Source of the DNA: Dasypus novemcinctus
Taxonomy: Eukaryota > Chordata > Mammalia > Cingulata > Dasypodidae
Assembly: GCF_030445035.2 (NCBI RefSeq)
Contig: NC_080680.1
Span: 98,089,157-98,153,156 of the forward strand
DNA length: 64,000 nt
Direction: 5' to 3'
Shown in pieces: positions 47,662-64,000 of the stretch. The stretch's first letter is position 1. Every line of letters starts with the position of its first letter. The notes beneath the pieces were generated by a model. That model worked only from the letters and a program-made list of their open reading frames with translations. It searched no databases and was not told the origin of the DNA. Both the position numbers and the translations under genes were made by a program.

Positions 47662-48633
47662 ATGATGACCAGACAGCAACAAAAATCTACAAACCAAACC
47701 AGTAATCAGGAAAACATGGCTGAATCCAATGAACAAACTAAAAACCAGGAAGGAGAGCAGAACTTTGCACAAGTAATTAAAGATCTCAGAACATATAACA
47801 CTGACAAATTTAATGAAGTAAAGGAAGAGGTTAACAACATGAAGACAACACTTGGAGGGGAAATTGCAGACATACGCAAAAAGATAACAGATATGATGGG
47901 AATGAACACCACAGTTCAAGAAATCAAAAATACACTCACAGCAAATATCAACAGACTAGAAGAGGCAGAGCAGAAAATTAGTGATGTGGAAGACAGTACA
48001 TCGGAAATCAAACAGATAGTAGAATTAACCGATAAAAAGATAGAAAAAATCCAGCTAGGACTTACAGACCTGAACGACAATGCAAAATGCTCAAACATAC
48101 GTATTATAGGCATCCCAGAAGAAGAAGAGAAGGGAAAGGGGTCAGAAGGAGTGTTGCAGGAAATAATGGCTGAAAACTTCCCAAATCTACTGAAAGAGAC
48201 AGATGTACATATCCAAGAAGCACAGCACACACCAATCGTCATAAACCCCAAGAGGCCCACCCCAAGACATATACTTGTCAAATTATGCAATGCTCAAGAC
48301 AAAGAGAAAATTCTAAAAGCAGCAAGAGAAAAGAAAACCATCACATACAAGGGAAGCTCCATAAGATTAAGTGCTGATTTCTCATCTGAAACCATGGAGG
48401 CAAGAAGGCAGTGGTATGATATAGTCAAGGTACTAAAAGAAAAAAATTTCCAACCAAGAATACTCTATCCAGCTAAACTAGCATTCAAAAATGATGGAGA
48501 GTTCAAAATATTCACAGATAAACAGAAACTGAAAGAGTATGCCAACAAGAAACCTCCCCTTCAAGAAATTCTAAAGGGAGTTCTGCAGGAAGAAAGGAAA
48601 AAACAGGACAGGCAGAGTTGGAGGGGAGTGTAA
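47662..48633 (+). CDS. L1-D ORF1 protein, intact
   Basis: This 323-residue open frame is close to the usual mammalian L1 ORF1p length (about 340). ORF1p is a cytoplasmic trimeric RNA-binding chaperone that packages L1 RNA. A basic/polar N-terminus (1-40) is followed by a predicted coiled coil (about 41-135, with SEIKQIVELTDKKIEKI), the RRM from NIRIIGIPEEEE (145-) to RPTPRHILVKL (198-208), and the C-terminal domain with AREKKTITYKG (221-231), MEARRQWYDIVKVLKEKNFQPRILYPAKL (in part; about 245-273) and KEYANKKPPLQEILKGVLQ. A second Met at position 2 and others near 19 are alternative starts. ORF2 begins 76 bp after the stop. No frame damage is seen, in contrast to ORF2. Confidence 0.88.
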   Translation: MMTRQQQKSTNQTSNQENMAESNEQTKNQEGEQNFAQVIKDLRTYNTDKFNEVKEEVNNMKTTLGGEIADIRKKITDMMGMNTTVQEIKNTLTANINRLEEAEQKISDVEDSTSEIKQIVELTDKKIEKIQLGLTDLNDNAKCSNIRIIGIPEEEEKGKGSEGVLQEIMAENFPNLLKETDVHIQEAQHTPIVINPKRPTPRHILVKLCNAQDKEKILKAAREKKTITYKGSSIRLSADFSSETMEARRQWYDIVKVLKEKNFQPRILYPAKLAFKNDGEFKIFTDKQKLKEYANKKPPLQEILKGVLQEERKKQDRQSWRGV

Positions 48634-48708: not shown

Positions 48709-49785
48709 ATGGCTAATATAAATAATTCCTTGAAAGTAATAACACTGAATGTCAATGGATTAAACTCACCTATCAAAAGATTCAGACTGGTAAATTGGAT
48801 AAGGAAATATGATCCATCTATATGCTGTCTACAAGAGACACATCTTAGACCCAGGGACTCATGGAGGCTGAAAGAGAATGGTTGGAAAACAATCTTACAA
48901 GCAAACAATAACCAAAAAAAGGCAGGAGTAGCTATATTAATATCAGGCAAAGTAGACTTTAAATGTTAAACAATTGTGAGAGACAAAGAAGGATACTACA
49001 TATTAGTGAAAGGGACAATCTGTCAAGAAGAATAGACAATCATAAATATTTATGCTCCTAACAAGGGTGCCTCTAAATACATGAGGCAAACGCTGGAAAA
49101 ACTAAGTGAAAGAATAGATGCATCTACAATTATAGTGGGGGATTTTAATACACCACTATCAACTCTGGGCAGAACATCTCAAAAGAGAATCACTAAAGAA
49201 ACAAAATATTTGAACAGTATATTAGAGGAGCTGGATCTAATAGACATATACAGATCATTACACCCAAACACAGAAGGATATACATTTTTCTCAAGTGCCC
49301 ATGGAACATTCTCCAAGATAGACCATATGCTAGGCCACAAAGAAAGGCTCAGTGAATTCAGAAAGATTGAAATCATACAAAATAATATCTCTGACCACAG
49401 TGGAGTGAAGCTGGAAATTTGCAAGGGCCAGAGGCCCAGATTTCACACCAAGATTTGGAAATTAAACAGCACACTCTTAGAAAAACAGTGGGTCAAAGAG
49501 GAAATCTCAAAAGAAATCAATGACTACCTTGAAACAAATGATAACACAACATACCAAAATTTATGGGATGCAGCAAAAGCAGTACTTAGAGGGAAATTTA
49601 TAGCCATAAATTCATATATCAAAAAAGAAGAAAGAGCAAAAATTGAAGAACTAACTGCACATTTGGAGGAATTAGAAAAGAAACAACAAAGTAATCCAAC
49701 AGGAAGAAGAAGGAAGGAAATAACAAAGATAAGAGCAGAACTAAATGAAATAGAAAATAAGAAAGCACTTGAAAAGATAAACAAG
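48709..49785 (+). pseudogene. L1-D ORF2, 5' part (endonuclease), two in-frame stops
   Basis: It encodes the apurinic/apyrimidinic-type endonuclease of L1 ORF2p, which nicks target DNA. ATG 48709 opens a frame with LNVNGLNSP (catalytic Asn 14) and CCLQETHL (Glu 43). TAA at 48967 and a TAG near 49033 interrupt it in the same frame. The frame then runs open from 49081 with [13 protein letters not shown] and SDHS motifs to 49785, where WDR82 sequence begins. Full-length endonuclease cannot be made. Confidence 0.85.
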
Positions 49786-50700
49786 AGCTTCCGCGTCGCC
49801 AAGGTGTTCCGCGAGAACTCGGACAAGATTAACTGCTTCGACTTCAGCCCTAACGGCGAGACGGTCATTTCGAGCAGCGACGACGACTCCATCGTGCTCT
49901 ATGACTGCCAGGAGGGCAAACCAAAGAGAACCCTGTACAGTAAGAAATATGGTGTGGACCTCATCAGATACACACATGCAGCAAACACAGTGGTTTACAG
50001 CTCTAACAAAATAGACGATACTATTCGTTACCTGTCCTTGCATGACAACAAATACATCAGATACTTTCCTGGACATAGCAAAAGGGTGGTGGCCTTGTCC
50101 ATGTCACCTGTGGATGACACTTTCATTTCTGGGTCTCTTGATAAGACCATTCGACTCTGGGATCTCCGTTCTCCTAACTGCCAGGGCCTCATGCATCTAC
50201 AGGGCAAGCCAGTTTGTTCTTTTGATCCAGAAGGGTTAATTTTTGCTGCGGGTGTCAATTCTGAAATGGTCAAACTTTATGACCTTCGTTCTTTTGATAA
50301 GGGGCCATTTGCAACCTTTAAGATGCAATACGATCGGACTTGTGAGTGGACAGGATTGAAGTTCAGCAATGATGGCAAGCTCATTCTCATCTCCACCAAT
50401 GGCAGCTTCATCCGTCTCATCGATGCATTCAAGGGAGTGGTGATGCATACATTTGGGGGTTATGCCAACAGCAAAGCAGTCACACTGGAGGCCTCATTTA
50501 CTCCAGACTCCCAGTTCATCATGATTGGTTCAGAGGATGGCAAGATCCATGTTTGGAATGGAGAGAGTGGTATAAAAGTAGCAGTGTTGGATGGCAAACA
50601 CACAGGCCCCATCACCTGTTTGCAGTTCAACCCCAAGTTCATGACCTTTGCCAGTGCATGTTCCAACATGGCCTTCTGGCTGCCCACCATTGATGACTGA
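49081..50700 (+). CDS. Chimeric ORF: partial L1 endonuclease fused in frame to WDR82
   Basis: A 539-codon open frame is formed because the WDR82 copy landed in frame inside ORF2. Residues 1-235 are L1: GDFN at 20-23, SKIDHMLG at 78-85, SDH at 104-106, then a charged linker. The N-terminal endonuclease residues (ORF2 Asn 14 and Glu 43) lie upstream of the stops and are absent. Residues 236-539 equal WDR82 10-313. Between Met83 and the WDR82 part there is no Met, so WDR82 sequence would be reached only from Met1 or Met83, or from the internal WDR82 Met115. Whether it is transcribed or translated is unknown. The L1 antisense/sense promoters or a nearby promoter would be required. The frame itself is seen directly; a function is not claimed. 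Confidence 0.6.
49771..49785 (+). repeat. Target-site duplication, left copy, of the WDR82 retrocopy
   Basis: GAAAAGATAAACAAG precedes the WDR82 sequence directly. The right copy (53430-53444) follows the poly(A). Because the right copy's G could belong to the tail, the duplication is 14 or 15 bp. Its A-rich start fits L1 endonuclease cleavage. Confidence 0.93.
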
Positions 50701-51771
50701 CCCCAGTGCTGCTCAGCTGTGTCTGTACACCAAGGATGGCCAGCAGGAAACATTCAGAGGGGCTGAGATAATAGTGGGATTGAATCATTGGACTGAGCTA
50801 GAGAGCATCCTTTCACATAGCCTTCCCAAGGATATTGCTGTGCATCTGCTCAAAAAAAAATCCTTTGCTGTGCTTCTTCAAAAGGACTCTTGGTGCAGTA
50901 AACTACATTGGGACTCAGATTTTCCACTGTCACTGCACTGAGCTTCGGAGCGAGCAGGGTCCTGATTAGAGTATAGTGGGACCTTCACGATGCCTTCGAT
51001 TCCGAATGTATGTGCTGCTGAGGAGCCGGTGAAGTTGTTAATTCTGCACATCCCTTCTTCCACCCCCATAAATGCATGGGAAGCCGTAGTTCTGGTTTTG
51101 AGATGCTAGGGTAGCTCACTACCCCTTGCCCTCACCTTGCATGTCTTGTTACTGGGTCTCCCTGTGTCACTGTGGCATTATTCCACAACCATCATGTTTC
51201 TTAGGTGCCAAACATTTACGGAAATAAGTCTTCACGTATATATCTTGGGGTCGGAGAAAGGAACAGATACAGAAGTACCTTGCTTGCAAGGAAGTTGTGC
51301 AGTTAGTCATGTGGGGGTGGGAGGTCCGGGTAAGCCTGTGTCCCTGAATGTTGGGTGGAAAAAGGCCCAAGAACCTGAAAGGGGTAGCAGGTGAGTTCCC
51401 AGGGCTGGGAGGTTTAGAAGCAGCCTAGTGCAGTTCCCCATCATCACGAAAAGCCTGTGGTCCTCCTGGGTGCCCATCAAGCTTTTGATTGGGTACCAAA
51501 GTAAAGTGGGAGCCTATTTTTGTGCGTTAGATACTTCGCGCTTTCCAGTGGGCCAGTATTGTGCAGTGAGTCTGAGTTGTTTACACTGATGCCTTCCCTG
51601 CCCACAACAAATTGTGTACATAGTCTTCAGATAATAACACCTTTTTTTTCCCCAGCTCCCCAACCAAGAGCTGGATATAGGCCTGTGTTATATGTTATAT
51701 TTAGCCTTTTTATATATGACCTTTGATTTGTTTGTATTTTAGCAGAATGTGTGCACCGCCATTTAAATATC

Positions 51772-51812
51772 TGTATATGTGTGTATATATACATATAGAC
51801 ATGTATATATAC

Positions 51813-51845
<33 letters not shown>
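51772..51845. repeat. AT/GT microsatellite in the WDR82 3'UTR
   Basis: A run of alternating purine-pyrimidine, mainly TATATA with GTGTATATAC and ACATATAGAC interruptions. It is expected to be length-variable. Confidence 0.9.
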
Positions 51846-52877
51846 GTTTAAGGATGTTATGAAACCCGATTTCCTTATAATCATCTGCAGTTTCCCAGAT
51901 GTCAGCCAAAGGAGTCCTGGGGCCCAGGAGAAAGACTGCATCCTTGCTGATAGTGTTTGCCGCAAGTGTTAGTGGGTCTTTCCCATTGCCTTTTTCCCTT
52001 CAAAAGACTGAATGAAGCCAAGTGTCAAGTATTTGCTTTTTCTATGGCAGCTTAATGAGGGTCTTGGGATAATTCCCTTGTGTTTCTCAAGCTGCATTTT
52101 GAGGCCCTCTCTGCAGTATTAGCCCCTTTTGCCTGGCCATGCTTTGGCTGCACTTGTTTGTGTGTGACATTCACTCATGCATGCCTTTTGTGTCTGGCTT
52201 ATGGCATTTGGGGACAGGATACTGAAACTGGAGCATTTTCAGTTTGTCTTGAGGCTCCTCTTTGCCAATTACAGGTCATCCTTTTTATGTGGTGTGTCTG
52301 CTAGCATGCTGCTTTGCCGCCTTTTGGGGGAGGGAGGGGCTCTAGCCAGGCCTGGATTGACATGAGCTGAGACTGGTTCATGGCCTCTTCTTCCGCTTCA
52401 TGGCCTTAGAGCAGGGTGAGTAGCGTATTTTTTCATTCAGTTCCCACATATCTAAGCAGGCAACACACATTTCCCATAGATATCAAAGCTAAGACTTACA
52501 GCTCACTCAAGAGTACTTAGCTGCTTGCTGGTCAAACAAGCAGTCACTGCTTCCCTTCAGCTGCAGGAATAGAATGTGAATTGCTAGCAACTTTGACCTC
52601 TTGCTCATATGTAAAGGGCAAAGTGCGTCTGCCTTTCCCAAATGTTGATGGAGTCTGCAGCTGCCGAGATGCCACCCGCTATGTAGCTCTGCTTTCACAG
52701 AACGGAGGAACTTACAGAAACAAAATGATCTGAGCTGTTACTGCCCACCCCCAGCCTTTGGGGGGTGGGGGGTAGAAAATACATGGTAGGAGTAACTGTT
52801 CAGAGACTCTTAGAACTGTGTTAAAAAGAAAGGCAGCCTAACACCTGAAAGCTGCGCAGCCACTAAGCATCGCTCCT

Positions 52878-52896
52878 CCAGCAGCAGCAGCAGCAG
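52878..52896 (+). repeat. Short CAG repeat in the WDR82 3'UTR
   Basis: Six uninterrupted CAG units lie within the non-coding 3'UTR of the retrocopy. It probably derives from the parent mRNA. Confidence 0.85.
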
Positions 52897-53429
52897 GAAA
52901 GTGTTTTATTTGTGGGCCCTGTGGCTGTGAGCTGGCTCCTGAGTTGGGAAAGATAGGGAAAGATGGGGCTGGAAGCAATCAGAGATGTGGTAGGAATGAG
53001 GCGAAATAAAGGGAGAAAGGAGGCTGTGGTCCAGAGAGGCAAGGGCTGGGGCTTGAGTGGATGGTCTCAGAGGGAGCCAGGGGTGGTCAGGCTCTCTTCA
53101 GAGGGAAGGGGCCACTTGCTGCCCTCTCAAGAGTCCAGGCCAAGGCCACCTATTTGTATGTGACAGTGACATTGCACTGCTCAGCCACTAGCCAGTGATT
53201 TCCCATTGCAATCATAATGTTTATCAAGGAAAATTTGGGAATTTTAAAAAGAATCAGTTTTGCCACCAAATGCTATCACTGTTAATCTTTTGATGTTAAA
53301 TGTTCTAGACATTTCTGTGCATAGGTTTTTGGTGTGTTTACATAGATGTTATTCTGTATATACAATTTTATGTCCCTTTTTGTACTTAACATATAAACAT
53401 TTTTTCCCATGTTAAAAAAAAAAAAAAAA

Positions 53430-53444
53430 GAAAAGATAAACAAG
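53430..53444 (+). repeat. Target-site duplication, right copy, of the WDR82 retrocopy
   Basis: GAAAAGATAAACAAG after the poly(A) tail repeats 49771-49785. L1 ORF2 resumes immediately with ACCAAGAGCTGG (the [10 protein letters not shown] codons). Confidence 0.93.
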
Positions 53445-56184
53445 ACCAAGAGCTGGTTTTTTGAGAAGATCAATAAAAATGTCAAACCCTTAGCTAGACT
53501 AACAAAGAAAAAAAGAGAGAAGATGCAAATACACAAAACAAGAAATGAGAAAGGAGATATCACCACTGACCCCACAGAAATAAAGACTATCATAAGAGGA
53601 TACTTTGAAAAACAATATTCCAACAAAAATGACAATTCAGAGGAAATGGACAAATTCCTAGAAACACATAAGCAGCCTATATCAACAAAAGAAGAAATTG
53701 ATGATCTCAACAAACCAATCACAAGTAAAGAGATAGAATCAGTCATTAAAAACCTCCCAACTAAGAAGAGCCCAGGGCCAGATGGCTTCACAGGTGAATT
53801 CTACAAAACATTCCAGAAAGAACTAACACCAATTCTGCTGAAACTATTCCAAAAAATCAAAACAGATGGAACATTGCCTAACTCCTTCTATGATGCCAAA
53901 ATTACCCTAGTACCAAAGCCAAACAAAGACACCACAAGAAAGGAAAATTACAGACTAATTTCTCTAATGAACCTAGATGCAAAAATACTTAAGAAAATAC
54001 TTGCTAATCGTATTCAACGACACATTAAATGAATTATACACCACGACCAAGTGGCATTCATTCCAGGTATGCAAGGATGGTTCAACATAAGAAAATCAAT
54101 CAATGTATTACACCATATAAACAGATTGAAGGAAAAAAATCACATGATTATATCTATAGATGCAGAAAAAGCATTTGACAAAATACAGCACCCTTTCTTG
54201 ATAAAAACACTCCAAAACACCAGAATACAAGGAAATTTTTTGAACATGATAAAGAGTATATATGAAAAACCTACAGCCAACATTGTTTACAATGGAGAAT
54301 TCCTAAAATCCTTCCCTCTAAAATCAGGAACAAGACAAGGATGCCCACTGTTCTCCCTTCTATTTAACATTGTCTTAGAAGTACTTGCTCAAGCACTGAG
54401 GCAAGAACCAGATATAAAAGGCATTCAAATTGGAAAGGAAGAAGTCAACATTTCATTATTTGCAGATGACATGATCCTATACATAGAAAACCCTGAGAGG
54501 TCTACAACAAAGCTTCTAGAACTCATAAATGAGTTTAGTAAAGTCGCAGGTTATAAGATCAATGCACAAAAATCAGTAGCATTTCTGTATACCAATAATG
54601 AGCAAGCTCAGGAGGAAATCAAGAAACAAATACCATTCATAATAGTAAATTTAAAAATCAAGTATTTAGGAATAAATTTAACTAAAGATGTAAAAAACTT
54701 ATACACTGAGAACTATACAAGACTGTTCAAGGAAATCAAAGAAGACCTAAATAAATGGAAGAATATTCCCTGTTCATGGATAGGAAGACTAAATAGTATT
54801 AAGATGTCTATCCTACCAAAACTGATCTACACATTCAATGCAATCCCAATAAAAATCAACACAGCCTTCTTGAAGGAACTAGAAAAACTAACTATGAAAT
54901 TTATTTGGAAAGGAAAGAGGCCCCGAATAGCCAAAGACATATTGAAAAAGAAAAACGAAATTGGAGGAATCACACTACCTGACTTCAAAAGGTACTACAA
55001 AGCTACAGTAGTGAAAACAGCATGGTATTGGCATAAGGAGAGACACACAGACCAATGGAATCAAATTGAAAGTTCTGATATAGAACCTCATATATTTAGC
55101 CATATAATATTCGATAAAGCCACCAAACCCTCTCAACTGGGAGAGAATGGCCTATTCAACAAATGGTGCCTGTAGAACTGGATAGCCATATGTAGAAGAA
55201 TGAAAGAGGATTACCATCTCACACCTTATACAAAGATCAACTCAAGATGGATCAAAGACCTAAATATAAGAGCCAAGACCATAAAGACCTTGGAAAGCAG
55301 TGTAGGGAAACATCTACAAGACCTTGTAATAGGAAATGGCTTCATGAATAGCACACCAAAAGCACGAGCAGCAAAAGAACAAATAGATAAATGGGACTTC
55401 CTCAAAATTAAAGCTTTCTGCACCTCAAAGGAGTTTGTCAAGAAAGTAAAAAGGGAACCTACACAATGGGAGAAAATATTTGGCCACCATATATCTGATA
55501 AGAGATTTATAACTTGCATATATAAAGAACTCCTATATCTTGAAAATAAAAAGATAAACAACCCATTTAAAAAATGGGGAAAGGATTTAAACAGACACTT
55601 CTCCAAAGAAGAAATACAAATGACTAAAAAGCACATGAAAAAATGCTCCAAATCTTTAGCTATCAGGGAAATGCAAATCAAAACTACAATGAGATACCAT
55701 CTTACTCCCATAAGATTGGCAGCTATGAAAAAAAAAAACAGAAGAATACAAATGCTGGAGAGGATGTGAAGAAATGGGAACACTCATCCACTGCTGGTGG
55801 GAATGCAGAAGGATCCAACCATTCTGGAGGACAGTTTGGCGATTTCTCAAAAAACTAACCATAGATTTGCCATATGACCCAGCAATACCACTGCTGGGTA
55901 TATACCCAGCAGAACTGAAAACAAGGACACAAACCGATATATGCACACCAATGTTCATAGCAGCATTGTTCACTATCGCCAAAAGTTGGAATCAACCCAA
56001 ATGCCCATCAACAGATGAGTGGATCAATAAAATGTGGTATATACATACAATGGAATACTACTCGGCTTTAAGAACAAATACACTACAAACACACATGATA
56101 ACATGGATGAATCTTGAGAACCTTATGTTGAGTGAAGCAACCCAGGCATTGAAGGACAAATACTACATGACCTCAATGATATGA
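53445..56184 (+). pseudogene. L1-D ORF2, 3' part (reverse transcriptase and C-terminal domain), broken
   Basis: This is the RT and Cys-rich region of L1 ORF2p, which copies L1 RNA at the nicked target. Landmarks in order are [15 protein letters not shown] (near 53760), [21 protein letters not shown] (54051 on), [14 protein letters not shown] with the first catalytic Asp, [21 protein letters not shown] at 54459-54494 with the catalytic Asp pair, then the C-terminal domain to MISM-like codons at about 56184. TGA at 54030, TAG at 55173 and a frameshift at the A-run near 55729-55739 destroy the frame. Between these the segments of 374, 189 and 136 codons stay open, so decay is modest and the element is fairly young. 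Confidence 0.88.
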
Positions 56185-58868
56185 AATAAGCAAGCTGCCT
56201 CAGAGAGCTAGAGACTGGAAGATAGGCTTACAGGAAATCAGAGGGTAGAGGAAGGATGTAAGCTGACATCTACATGGGTGAAATCTATGATAAGCTGGCA
56301 GTAAGTATGTGCACAAGGAAGAGATAAAATGGGGGCATAGGGTTACCTTTGGGTGGGGCTTTGCGGGTTTGAGGGGAGCTAGGGATGGGCAGATGGGTAA
56401 TATTGCCCAAGAAATTGGGGGGATGGAGGGGCAACATATGAACATAGGAGATTCTCAGGTATTGGTTGAAAGTAAAATGCCGAGAAAACCTTTTCAAAAT
56501 ATAATTAGGAAAGTTACCTGTTTAAGATAATCAAAGGGGATAATCTGATGCAGGACAGACTCCTAGGGAATATCTGAATGCTCATTTTGCCAGAGTGGGT
56601 TATACCATTGGGTAGAGACCCATATAATGAGAGTGAAGGTAGACCCACATCCTGGGGAGGACTAATGCCATCAAAGAGAGGGAACTGTATCTCTCAAGAG
56701 AAAGGGTGGCTCCCAGGGCATTAGGGCAGTTGAGCAAGTCAAAGCCCTCAACACTGTTGCAAGTATCTCTGAACATGGCTCCTCAAGAAATGAAGATTGA
56801 CTGTCACTGTGGGCCCCAAGGGGAGGGGGAAATAGATATAGAATATATGGAACCAAAGTAAATGTGAGGGCAAAAGAAGTGTTTCACAAGAGTACACAGG
56901 ATAGATATAAAACATATAATATTACACCAAAAACATATGCCTAAAGTATAAACCACAATGTAAACACAAATGTCACCTTGTTTGAAAGCTGTTGTCTCAA
57001 TATCTGTACATCAGTTTCATAAATATGATATGAATAAGTTAAAAGATTATCGCTGTTGAAGGGAAAATGTTTTATAATGGATATGTGGGAGTACTGTATA
57101 TCGTATATATGAATTACTGTGATCTAAGGCTCTTGTGAAGAGAAGCTCAATAATTAGGAAAAAAGAAAAGAAAAAGATAGGATGTAGAATTTTTCCAAAT
57201 CAATATGTATTCTATATCTAACCTTTAAACTCATCACTATATTCCATTTTACTAGTGAGGGAACCTGACATTATATTAGGCTCCACTTTTCAGAAAGTTT
57301 TGGATCACAGAGTGGTTCAAAAATGGCAGCAGAGGAATACTGGTATGAGATGTAATTGACAGGTGATATATGGTTGACAGGGAGTTATACAGGGCATGTG
57401 TCCAGGGTGCATGGAAATGTTTGGATATACTCATAGTGGAAACAATTAAAAACAACAGCTGGGGGGGGTACTGGGTTCCTGGCCAGTGGTGCTCTGTCGT
57501 GGTCCCTAGGGGAGCAGCGACAGTCTCCCAGGTACAGTGGCGGGGACGGGGAGGGAGTGAGGGTTCAACAGTGAGCCCCTGATGCTAATGACTATGCTTG
57601 TGAGCTGATAAACCTAAAATAAGAACAAGGCCTAGAGCAACATTGTGCCTGGGAATTTCCTCCTGTCAGCCTTCATGTTACTCAAATGTGGCCAGTCTCG
57701 AAGCCAAACTCAGCATGTAAATGCAATGCCTTCCCCCCAGCGTGGGACATGACACCCGGGGATGAGCCTCCCTGGCAACGAGGGACCACTATCAACTACC
57801 AACTGATGATGCAACTGGAAAATCACCTTATACGGAAGGTTCAATGCAGATCAGCAGAATATCCATGTCTACATAAAATACCATGACTTTAAAATGCTGT
57901 TTGACCTAAAGTAAGGGGGAAATGGAAAGGAGAAATGAGTTTATATGGCTACGAGTTTCTAAAAAAGAGTCTGGAGGCTGGCAGAAGGATTGCCCTCATG
58001 CACAACTGAGCAGAGTCAGAGAGACAGATAAAGCAGATACAACCCCCAGATATTGGTTCCTTTGAGGGCTAAAGAGACCCATGGGAGTTATGGTCATGGC
58101 CGATGAGGTTAACTACCAGGGCAGATGGCCCCTCTTTGGAAATGGTGTTTATGTGTGATGAATCTGGACTCAGATGGGATCTCCCTTCATAAGACTTTCA
58201 TGCTAATGTGCTGGAGGTGCAGTTAATGTTGGGGTTTAAGATATATTTAGGGGATTTGAATCTCTGGACTGACAATGTGATAGCCAGGTCCTGAGCCTCA
58301 ACAGACTCCAGCACCTACAATCTGATCTATTGGACTTACCACACTCAGCTAAGATGGAGTTGAAGAAGGACAACCACCACACCATGGAGCCTAGAGTGAT
58401 TACAACTGAAAATGGGAGGATTGCATCCAGCATCCATGTGGAATCTGAGCCTCCTCTTGACATAGAGGTGCAATGGACACAACCAATCCAATGTCCACAT
58501 AGAAGAGGTGGCATTGGATTGGGAAAAGTGGACATGGTGGACGATGGGTATGGGGAAAGACAGGAAGAGATGAGAGGTGGAGGCGTCTTTGGGACATGGA
58601 GCTGCCCTGGATGGTGCTTCAGAGGTAATCACCGGACATTGTAAATCCTCACAGGGCCCACTGGATGGAATGGAGGAGAGTATGGGCCATGATGTGAACC
58701 ATTGTCTATGAGGTGCAGAGGTGCCCAAAGATGTACTTACCAAATCTAATGGATGTGTCATGATGATGGGAACGAGTGTTGTTGGGGGGGGGGAGGGGGG
58801 GTGGGGGGGGTGGGGTTGAATGGGACCTCACATATATATTTTTAATGTAATATTATTACAAAGTCAAT
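56185..58868 (+). repeat. Long 3'UTR of L1-D
   Basis: About 2.7 kb of non-coding sequence lies between the ORF2 end and the final AATAAA and A-rich tail (58867 on). The last roughly 780 bp is found again in the truncated L1 copies at 37871 and, in part, at 27791, 14768, 42165 and 6975, which proves that this end belongs to L1. For 56185-58080 I saw no second copy in the window, so it could include an unrelated insertion or transduced sequence. Confidence 0.6.
58784..58815 (+). other. G-quadruplex-type G-run near the L1-D 3' end
   Basis: Four or more G-tracts of at least 4 bases lie within 32 bp on the sense strand, about 50 bp upstream of the tail. Similar G-runs occur at the matching place in other L1 3' ends (14965-14976, 38667-38693, and as C-runs at 27878-27908). 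Confidence 0.8.
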
Positions 58869-60829: not shown

Positions 60830-62588
60830 GACATTCTCTTTATATTTCCTTTCCTTGGATCTCTTATTTTTTGGAAAAAAAAAAGTTTCTTTTTTATTTC
60901 CCTTATTTTACTCACTAAAACCTGGTTCAAAATGTGCAGAAGGCAGCCTGCAGGAGAGTGATTTAGGAACACCAGCAGCCTGAAAAGATCCTCAGGGGTC
61001 TAAGAGAGAAGGCTGTTTTTCCATGTTTATTTTTGGTTTTTAATTTTTTTTTTCTTCTGCCTCCTTTTTTTAAATGAGCAGCTACTGTCTTGTTTCTCAT
61101 TTGTTGTGTTTTCCCTTCCCTTGTTTCTCTGCTTGTTTGGTTTTTTGTTTGTTTGCTTGCTTACAGATTTATTCTAACTATGCTATTTTTTTTCTCTCCT
61201 TCATCTTTATATTTTCTGTTTTCTGTTGTTTTTCTTTCATTTCACCTCTTCTATTTGGTCTCCAATTTTTGTTTTTCTTTCACTCTTTCTCCTTTTTTCT
61301 CTGTTCACTTTCTTTTACTTTTTTCTTTCTCTCTTTTCTTTTCCCCTCTCCTCACTATTCCAGGCTTTTAATTAATTCAATATATTTTTCTCTATTCTGT
61401 GTCTTGTTCATTGTTTCTATTCCACTTTTGTAATCTTATTCCTCTGTGCTTTTACTCATGTTAATTTTTCAATTTCCTAGTTCTTGTACTGTTCCTTTCT
61501 TACCTTTTACTATTTTTTTTCTCTTCCTATATCTTTCTTTTTCTCTGGTTCCTAATTATTTTTCTTTCAAGGGAACATAGACAACAACAAGGAAATTGAA
61601 TAAGAAGAACAAAATGTCAAAGTGAAACCTTACACACACATAAAAACAACAAAATAAAACCATAGAATAGAGAGAGAAGCTAATCAACTGAATAAACCCA
61701 TCAAGATAAACAGATGCCTAGACACCAGTGAAAAATTACAAGCCATATTAAGAAACAGCAAGACATGGCCCAGTCCAATGAACAAACTAAAAACCAGGAG
61801 GAGAGGCAGAACATGGAAAAACTAATCAGAGATAATCCAAACAAATATCATGAATCAACTTAATGAACTGAAGGAAGAGATTGAGGATATTAAGAAGATA
61901 CTGGGAGAACATCATGAAGAAATCCTAAACACATATAAAAAGATAACATATGATGGTGAAGAATGGCACAATCCAAGAAATGAAAATACACTGGAAGCAC
62001 ATAATAGCAGATCTGAACAGGCAGAAGAAAGAATCGGCAATGTGGAAGACAGTACATCTGAAATCAAACAGATAGTAGAACAGATAGATAAAAGATAGAA
62101 AAAATTCAGCAGGGATGTAGGGATTTGAATGACAATACACAACAGACAAACATATGCATTACCGGCATCTCAGAGGAAGAAGAGAAGGGAAAGAGGACAA
62201 AGTGTGTTGGGCGAAATAATGGCTGAAAACTTCCCTACCCTATTGAGGGAGATGGACATATAGGTCCAGGAAGTGTAGCACACCCCATACAATATAAATC
62301 CTAATAGGCCTACTCCAAGATGTACACTTGACAAATTGTCCAAAGCTCAAGACAAAGAGAGAATACTGAAAGCAGCAAGACAAAAACAAATACATACAAG
62401 GGGAGTTCAATAAGATTAAGTGCAGATTTCTCATTGGAAACCATGGAGGCAAGAAGGCAGTGGTATGATATAGCTAAGGTGCTAAAAGAAAAAAAATTCC
62501 AGCCAAGAATTCTCTATCCAGCAAAGCTGGCATTCAAAATTGAGGAAGAGTTCAAAATATCCACAGATAAAAAGAAATTTAGAGTATG

Positions 62589-63076
62589 TGTAGCAGTTTT
62601 TGATATTATTGATGAATTCCAAAAGGAAATACTGGATTATGTTTGTAAACTGATCTTTTCCTCTGGGCATATTAGGTTATACTGGAGTCGTAGATTTACT
62701 TAACTAAGTAATTATGTAGACCTTTTGTTCCAGTAGGCATGGAAAAGGACAGAGTTGGGGGCTTTTAATGTTGGGGTTTTGATGTTGGAGTTTTGATGTT
62801 GAAGTTTGATGCTGAAGCCTTAAGCTGGAGCCCTAGGAAGTAAACACACAGAGGAAAGAGAAACAAGCCCCAGGAAGGGAGGAACCCAGGAAGCCTGAAC
62901 CACTGCAGATGTCAGCAACCATCTAGCTCCAACACGTGAAAACAGACTTTGGTGAGAGAAGTAACTTATGCTTTAAGGCCTGGTATCTGTAAGCTTCTAC
63001 CCCAAATAAATACCCTTTATAAAAACCAACCAATTTCTGGTATTTTGCATCAGCACCTCTTTGGCTGACTAATACA
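62589..63076 (+). mobile_element. MaLR-like solo LTR in L1-E ORF1
   Basis: Starts TGTAGCAGTTTT and ends GACTAATACA (TG to CA). A perfect 5-bp duplication, GTATG, lies at 62584-62588 and 63077-63081 and splits the ORF1 codons. AATAAA occurs at about 63005, some 70 bp before the end. It is the same family as 15900-16385, in the opposite orientation. Confidence 0.87.
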
Positions 63077-64000
63077 GTATGTCAATGAGAAACCTACTCT
63101 TCAAGAAATACTACAAGGAGTTTTGCAAGTTGAAAGGAAAAAACAGGAGACAGAGAGTTGGAGAAGAGTGTAAGAACAAATAAAAAGATAAAAAGAGAAA
63201 TAAAAACAACATATGGCATACAGAAGCCTAAAGAAAATATGGCTAATGTAAATAATTCCTTGACAATAATAACATTGAATGTTAATGGATTAAACTCACC
63301 AGTCAAGAGACACAGACTAACAGAATGGATAAAGAAATATGACCCATTTATATGTTATCACCCAGGTTGCAAGGAGGTTGAAAGTGAATGGTTGGAAAAC
63401 AATTTTACAAGCAAACAATAACCAAAAAATGGTGGGAGTAGCTATATGAATAGACAAAATAGACTTTAAATGCAAAACTATTGCAAGAGACAAAGAAGGA
63501 CACTGTATATTAATAAAAGGGGTAATCTATCAAGAAGAAAGAAAAATCATAAACATTTATGCACCTAACCAGGGCAACTCAAAATACATGAGGAAAACAC
63601 TGGAAAAACCAAATGGAGAAATAGATGCCTCTACAATTATAGTGGGGGACTTTAATACACCATTATCACCATTAGACAGAATATCTCAACAGAGAATCAA
63701 TAAAGAAAGACTTTGAAAAATACATTAAAGGATCTGTACCTAATGGACATATACAAAACATTAGACTCAAATACAGTGTGATATACATTCTTCTCAAGTG
63801 CACATGGATCATTCTCCAGAAGAGATCACATTGTAGGCCACAGAACAATTCACAACGAATTCAGAAAGACTGAATTATACAAAGTAATTTCTCTAACAAT
63901 GGAATGAAGCTGGAAATCAGTCAGGCACAGAGAATCAGAATAGGCACAAAGATATGGAATGTAAATAATACATTCTTAGAGAAACAGTGGATAGGGGAGA

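Follow-up and report, generated by a model that had tools for sequence, protein, structure and literature searches.

A young WDR82 retrocopy joined in frame to a defective L1 in the nine-banded armadillo is almost certainly a processed pseudogene

Introduction

Processed pseudogenes made by L1 in trans are intronless, 5'-truncated copies with a poly(A) tail, a target site duplication (TSD), a near-consensus endonuclease site and an unlinked, intron-bearing parent. The WDR82 copy described here from the nine-banded armadillo (Dasypus novemcinctus) has all of these features and differs only in its landing site, a sense-oriented L1 ORF2 with which it forms a chance in-frame join. Retrocopies inserted into another coding unit can also yield in-frame fusions, as described for TRIM5-CypA and jingwei in the available portion of PMC5408686, and the armadillo locus shares this arrangement; those fusions, however, are transcribed with the host gene, whereas the host unit in the armadillo is a broken L1 in which stops sever the fusion from ORF2's own start, and the locus has no known transcript. 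Chimeric L1-RNA insertions, as outlined in the available part of PMC13174262, likewise bring L1 and mRNA sequence together in the same orientation, but they arise in a single event and have the non-L1 sequence joined to the 5' end of the L1, while the armadillo case is sequential, with the TSD lying inside an older L1.

We analysed a stretch of 64,000 nt (C8:98089157-98153156), referred to throughout as the window, and searched the genome from which it comes (3.61 Gb, 546 contigs). An earlier note on this DNA had put forward an open frame joining L1 and WDR82 as a good candidate for a new gene, with a recent neutral retrocopy as the default explanation. The anatomy of the insertion and its ~0.2% divergence from the parent gene bear out the default: the locus is almost certainly an ordinary young processed WDR82 retrocopy, or pseudogene, nested in a dead L1, and not a new gene.

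Results

The fused frame and its insertion into an older L1

The L1 and WDR82 features of the fused locus all lie on the + strand of the window. The fused open frame runs from ATG to TGA at 49081-50700 (539 codons, delimited by the ORF list and homology) and consists of 235 codons of L1 ORF2 (49081-49785) followed in frame by 304 codons of WDR82 (49786-50697), the reading frame being continuous across the joint at 49785/49786. The earlier note had these coordinates, the composition and the continuity across the joint right; it made no reference to the in-frame ORF2 stops (48967, 49033), to the poly(A) tail and TSD copy that close the insert, or to the reach of the insertion as far as 53429. 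Fusion residues 2-237 align with residues 125-362 of a solved human L1 ORF2p (E 3e-74). Because endonuclease-only chains match fusion residues 2-113 alone and the Exo_endo_phos profile of Pfam is matched in its C-terminal part only, the L1 part is, on these matches, the C-terminal half of the endonuclease together with ~120 residues after it, which refines the proposed label of L1 endonuclease. Fusion residues 236-539 correspond to WDR82 residues 10-313 and are identical at 304/304 residues to two relatives with full cover (P0002, P0003) and, over the covered part, at 295/295 to two entries named mammalian WDR82 (P0004, P0005). WDR82 residues 1-9 are missing from the copy and are still encoded by the parent gene.

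A 5' TSD copy at 49771-49785 (15 bp, or 16 with the ambiguous next base counted) precedes the retrocopy at 49786-53413, which was matched exon by exon to the parent and comprises an intronless coding part (49786-50700), 5'-truncated at WDR82 codon 10, and about 2.7 kb of 3'UTR extending to 53413. A poly(A) tail of 16 A follows at 53414-53429, and the 3' TSD copy at 53430-53444 is a perfect repeat of 49771-49785, of a length (15-16 bp) typical of L1. Loss of introns is directly shown against the genomic parent at six exon joins, the others adjoining one unreadable exon. The TSD encloses the WDR82 part alone, inside L1 ORF2, and does not flank L1 and WDR82 jointly; the host L1 resumes in the same frame at the base right after the 3' TSD, and joining the two flanks (90 bases each) restores an uninterrupted stretch of L1 ORF2 in a single frame. 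The inferred bottom-strand nick, TTTTC/AAG, is a near-consensus variant of the L1 endonuclease site, for which the consensus is TTTT/AA. A 13-base core of the TSD has three exact occurrences in the window, the two insert ends and 55549 in the same L1, and A-rich L1 words are common, so the TSD call rests on position at both insert ends and not on rarity. Given the internal TSD, the poly(A) tail and the L1 frame resuming behind the 3' TSD, the insert is a target-primed copy of an mRNA in a pre-existing L1, a textbook processed retrocopy, and not a chimera formed in a single event.

We consider an assembly artefact unlikely, reasoning that a mis-join would not be expected to leave a poly(A) tail, a TSD free of mismatches and an L1 that picks up its frame again. 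The 915-base coding part has one full-length place at 100% in the genome (8/8 candidates scored), the parent exons matching piecewise, and the upstream flank, for which 40 of 60694 candidates were scored, likewise matches a single place at 100%; no alternative haplotype or empty allele was seen in the genome search with these two sequences.

The host element retains an open ORF1 at 47662-48633 (323 aa; Pfam Transposase_22 and Tnp_22_dsRBD). Its ORF2, recognised by homology, is divided into a 5' part of codons 1-359 (48709-49785), with stops ahead of the fused frame at 48967 (codon 87) and 49033 (codon 109), and a continuation in the same frame at 53445-55769, where stops occur again at codons 555 and 936, numbered on the empty-site frame. 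Of 7320 candidate copies, 40 were scored, the window included; the other 39 are only 95-96% identical to the host L1, at most 96%, which suggests that this element is many times older than the insert: it lies 4-5% from its nearest scored copies, as against ~0.2% between the WDR82 insert and its parent. The host was presumably already defective when the retrocopy arrived. Nineteen of these 39 copies were fetched as sisters for comparison. The codon-87 stop is absent in 19/19 of them; codon 109 is a stop in 6/19, where the triplet differs from the host's and the site is CpG-prone. The codon-109 stop thus appears to reflect recurrent decay and not a shared mutation. The host also lacks 6 bases near ORF2 codons 277-279 (about 49537-49546) that are present in 19/19 sister copies, and, to judge by the spacing of matches, about 70 bases at 56938/56939 that sister copies have; both losses count as further private damage.

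Divergence from the parent and age of the insertion

A genome search located the intron-bearing parent WDR82 at G000:C41:13395307-13409492, on the minus strand of a different contig from the copy. Seven parent coding exons are present letter for letter in the copy (0/786 differences, a count that includes one junction base shared with the TSD); one coding exon, partly N in the assembly, was left out of the comparison. Across the last exon (30 coding bases plus 3'UTR) 8/2738 aligned bases differ, in addition to indels of 3 bases and 2 bases, and all of these differences fall in the 3'UTR, which is 99.7% identical to that of the parent. The overall divergence is thus 8/3524, or 0.23%. When the eight substitutions were polarised with an older broken WDR82 retrocopy (L012), five proved private to the copy, two were on the parent side and one was unplaceable. 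Positions 50819, 50989, 51112, 51637 and 52225 are examples of 3'UTR bases specific to the copy. Taking 5 to 6 private changes and a rate of 2.2e-9 per site per year, which is not calibrated for armadillos, the insertion would be roughly 0.7 million years old, roughly under one million.

The difference between the coding exons (0/786) and the last exon (8/2738) leans, non-significantly, towards constraint (Fisher p = 0.21). The comparison of dN/dS between copy and parent that had been proposed as a check has no power here, since the 786 comparable coding bases hold not a single difference; very recent insertions give artificially low dN/dS, according to the available part of a retrocopy survey (PMC13251070). 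A divergence of ~0.2% shows that L1-driven retrocopying in the nine-banded armadillo continued until recently, while the same survey, in the part available, found that the retrocopies of this species have no peak at very young ages.

Chance, youth and the prospects of expression

The earlier note regarded a stop-free WDR82 part next to a stop-free L1 part as unusual, a view that comparison with sister elements and simulated insertions does not support. The L1 segment (ORF2 codons 125-354) is open in 8/19 sister L1s and broken in 11, and random in-frame insertion within the first 830 ORF2 codons of this element leaves 235 or more ATG-started L1 codons at 27% of positions and 100 or more at 60%. 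In simulations of neutral WDR82 copies of this age, 50-57% still had an open frame, and 8-14% had acquired neither an amino-acid change nor an indel. Multiplied by the one-third chance of keeping frame, these values put a fusion of this length at ~5% and a fusion retaining 100 or more L1 codons at ~11%, both being products of factors treated as independent. With 13,403 retrocopies counted in this armadillo (PMC13251070, available part), such odds mean that coincidental fusions of this kind are expected. Too little time has passed for stops to build up in the WDR82 part, and the length of the open frame matches what would be expected from chance and recent origin. As this case illustrates, open frames in young copies can be misleading.

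The position of the fused frame within the host is unfavourable to translation. Its first codon is an internal Met whose context is weak (TACATGA, with T at -3 and A at +4) and which lies downstream of 40 ATG triplets (counted from 46000) and the 323-codon ORF1. The ORF2 start codon cannot drive the fusion, as the stops at codons 87 and 109 intervene, and L1 ORF2 is itself poorly translated. With its start behind two ORF2 stops, in a weak context and far downstream in any L1 transcript, the fusion most likely makes no protein. A protein search in which the 7985 candidates sharing most words were scored found no protein joining L1 and WDR82 parts among the best 120 of 508 hits, none of which covers more than 63% of the fusion. 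Literature searches found nothing for WDR82 with retrocopy and, judged by title, nothing on topic for WDR82 with processed pseudogene. The available part of the armadillo survey reports 3615 retrocopies (27%) as expressed in three tissues, a figure obtained after excluding copies so similar to the parent that the two could not be distinguished (PMC13251070); it leaves room for transcription and says nothing on the WDR82/L1 copy.

Discussion

The origin that we favour is a routine one. L1 machinery acting in trans would have copied a spliced, polyadenylated WDR82 mRNA (trans-mobilisation is what we infer here), and target-primed reverse transcription would have placed the cDNA, which reaches back only to WDR82 codon 10, in the ORF2 of an older L1 copy. 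The sense-oriented join would have kept frame by a one-in-three chance, and the event would be recent enough for the WDR82 part to carry no stop yet.

If the locus were a new gene, its birth would have been caught very early; the evidence points instead to a routine nested retrocopy. That an L1-derived N-terminus and a WDR82 propeller are expressed as one functional protein and kept by selection is very improbable: the 539-codon open frame and a WDR82 part unchanged at every comparable coding base are what such a gene would display, but youth explains both the openness and the lack of change, and the severed ORF2 start, the weak ATG context, the upstream ATGs and ORF1, and the lack of any protein so shaped among the best hits all weigh against it. 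The two stops that sever the frame from the ORF2 start, together with an openness expected from youth, leave the fusion without support as a good new-gene candidate. Native WDR82 has partners in the SET1, PNUTS and ZC3H4 complexes, and it is extremely doubtful that germline or embryonic transcription from the L1 promoter, followed by translation through re-initiation, yields a WDR82 variant with an L1-derived N-terminus that competes with WDR82 in these complexes. Scarcely any probability attaches to a non-coding regulatory role, for example as a decoy for factors binding the WDR82 3'UTR, produced by read-through from the L1 promoter; the 3'UTR is indeed kept almost in full identity, but nothing seen distinguishes this copy from other young retrocopies. 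Insertion of L1 and WDR82 together, as one chimeric cDNA formed by template switching, has a negligible probability: L1-mRNA chimeras do exist (PMC13174262, available part), but this origin is refuted by the TSD inside ORF2, directly after which L1 continues without a shift of frame, and by the difference in age between an L1 part 4-5% from its nearest scored copies and a WDR82 part 0.2% from its parent. Nothing set against the neutral reading, neither the zero changes at comparable coding bases nor the rate used for dating, lifts the fusion above a young retrocopy.

The same genome holds a stronger contender for new-gene status, an older intact WDR82 retrogene on another contig (L011:2090-3031 = G000:C42:6472089-6473030). 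It is full-length, with 313 intact codons, and its protein is identical at 313/313 residues to an nr entry named 'WD repeat-containing protein 82-like [Dasypus novemcinctus]'; by eye, its upstream flank is GC-rich. Compared with the WDR82 sequence of the window, which took the parent's place in this calculation, it gave dN 0.075, dS 0.72 and omega 0.10, with 45/304 amino-acid changes. When the same 142 substitutions were placed randomly (300 simulations), the mean was 94 amino-acid changes and the minimum 82, and only 2% of simulated copies were stop-free. These simulations load every change on the copy, and silent changes on the parent side would, we reason, lower the neutral omega to ~0.5, still well above 0.10. 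This retrogene looks to be under constraint. Among the 38 hits listed for it, no relative was closer than 86% (over 83% of length). The older broken retrocopy used for polarising (L012, G000:C41:29042500-29049500) is about 79% identical over 2.5 kb, much of the 3'UTR included, and its protein match to WDR82 splits into three pieces.

Elsewhere in the 64,000-nt window, where an Rfam search found nothing, an open 243-codon frame at 4358-5089 matches glycosyltransferase family 6 (PF03414, E 2.4e-111) and is perhaps a terminal coding exon or a gene copy of that family, which we take to be possibly GGTA1-like. At 61580-64000, what looks by eye like another L1, oriented as the first and more decayed, is apparently interrupted by a further insertion near 62600-63070.
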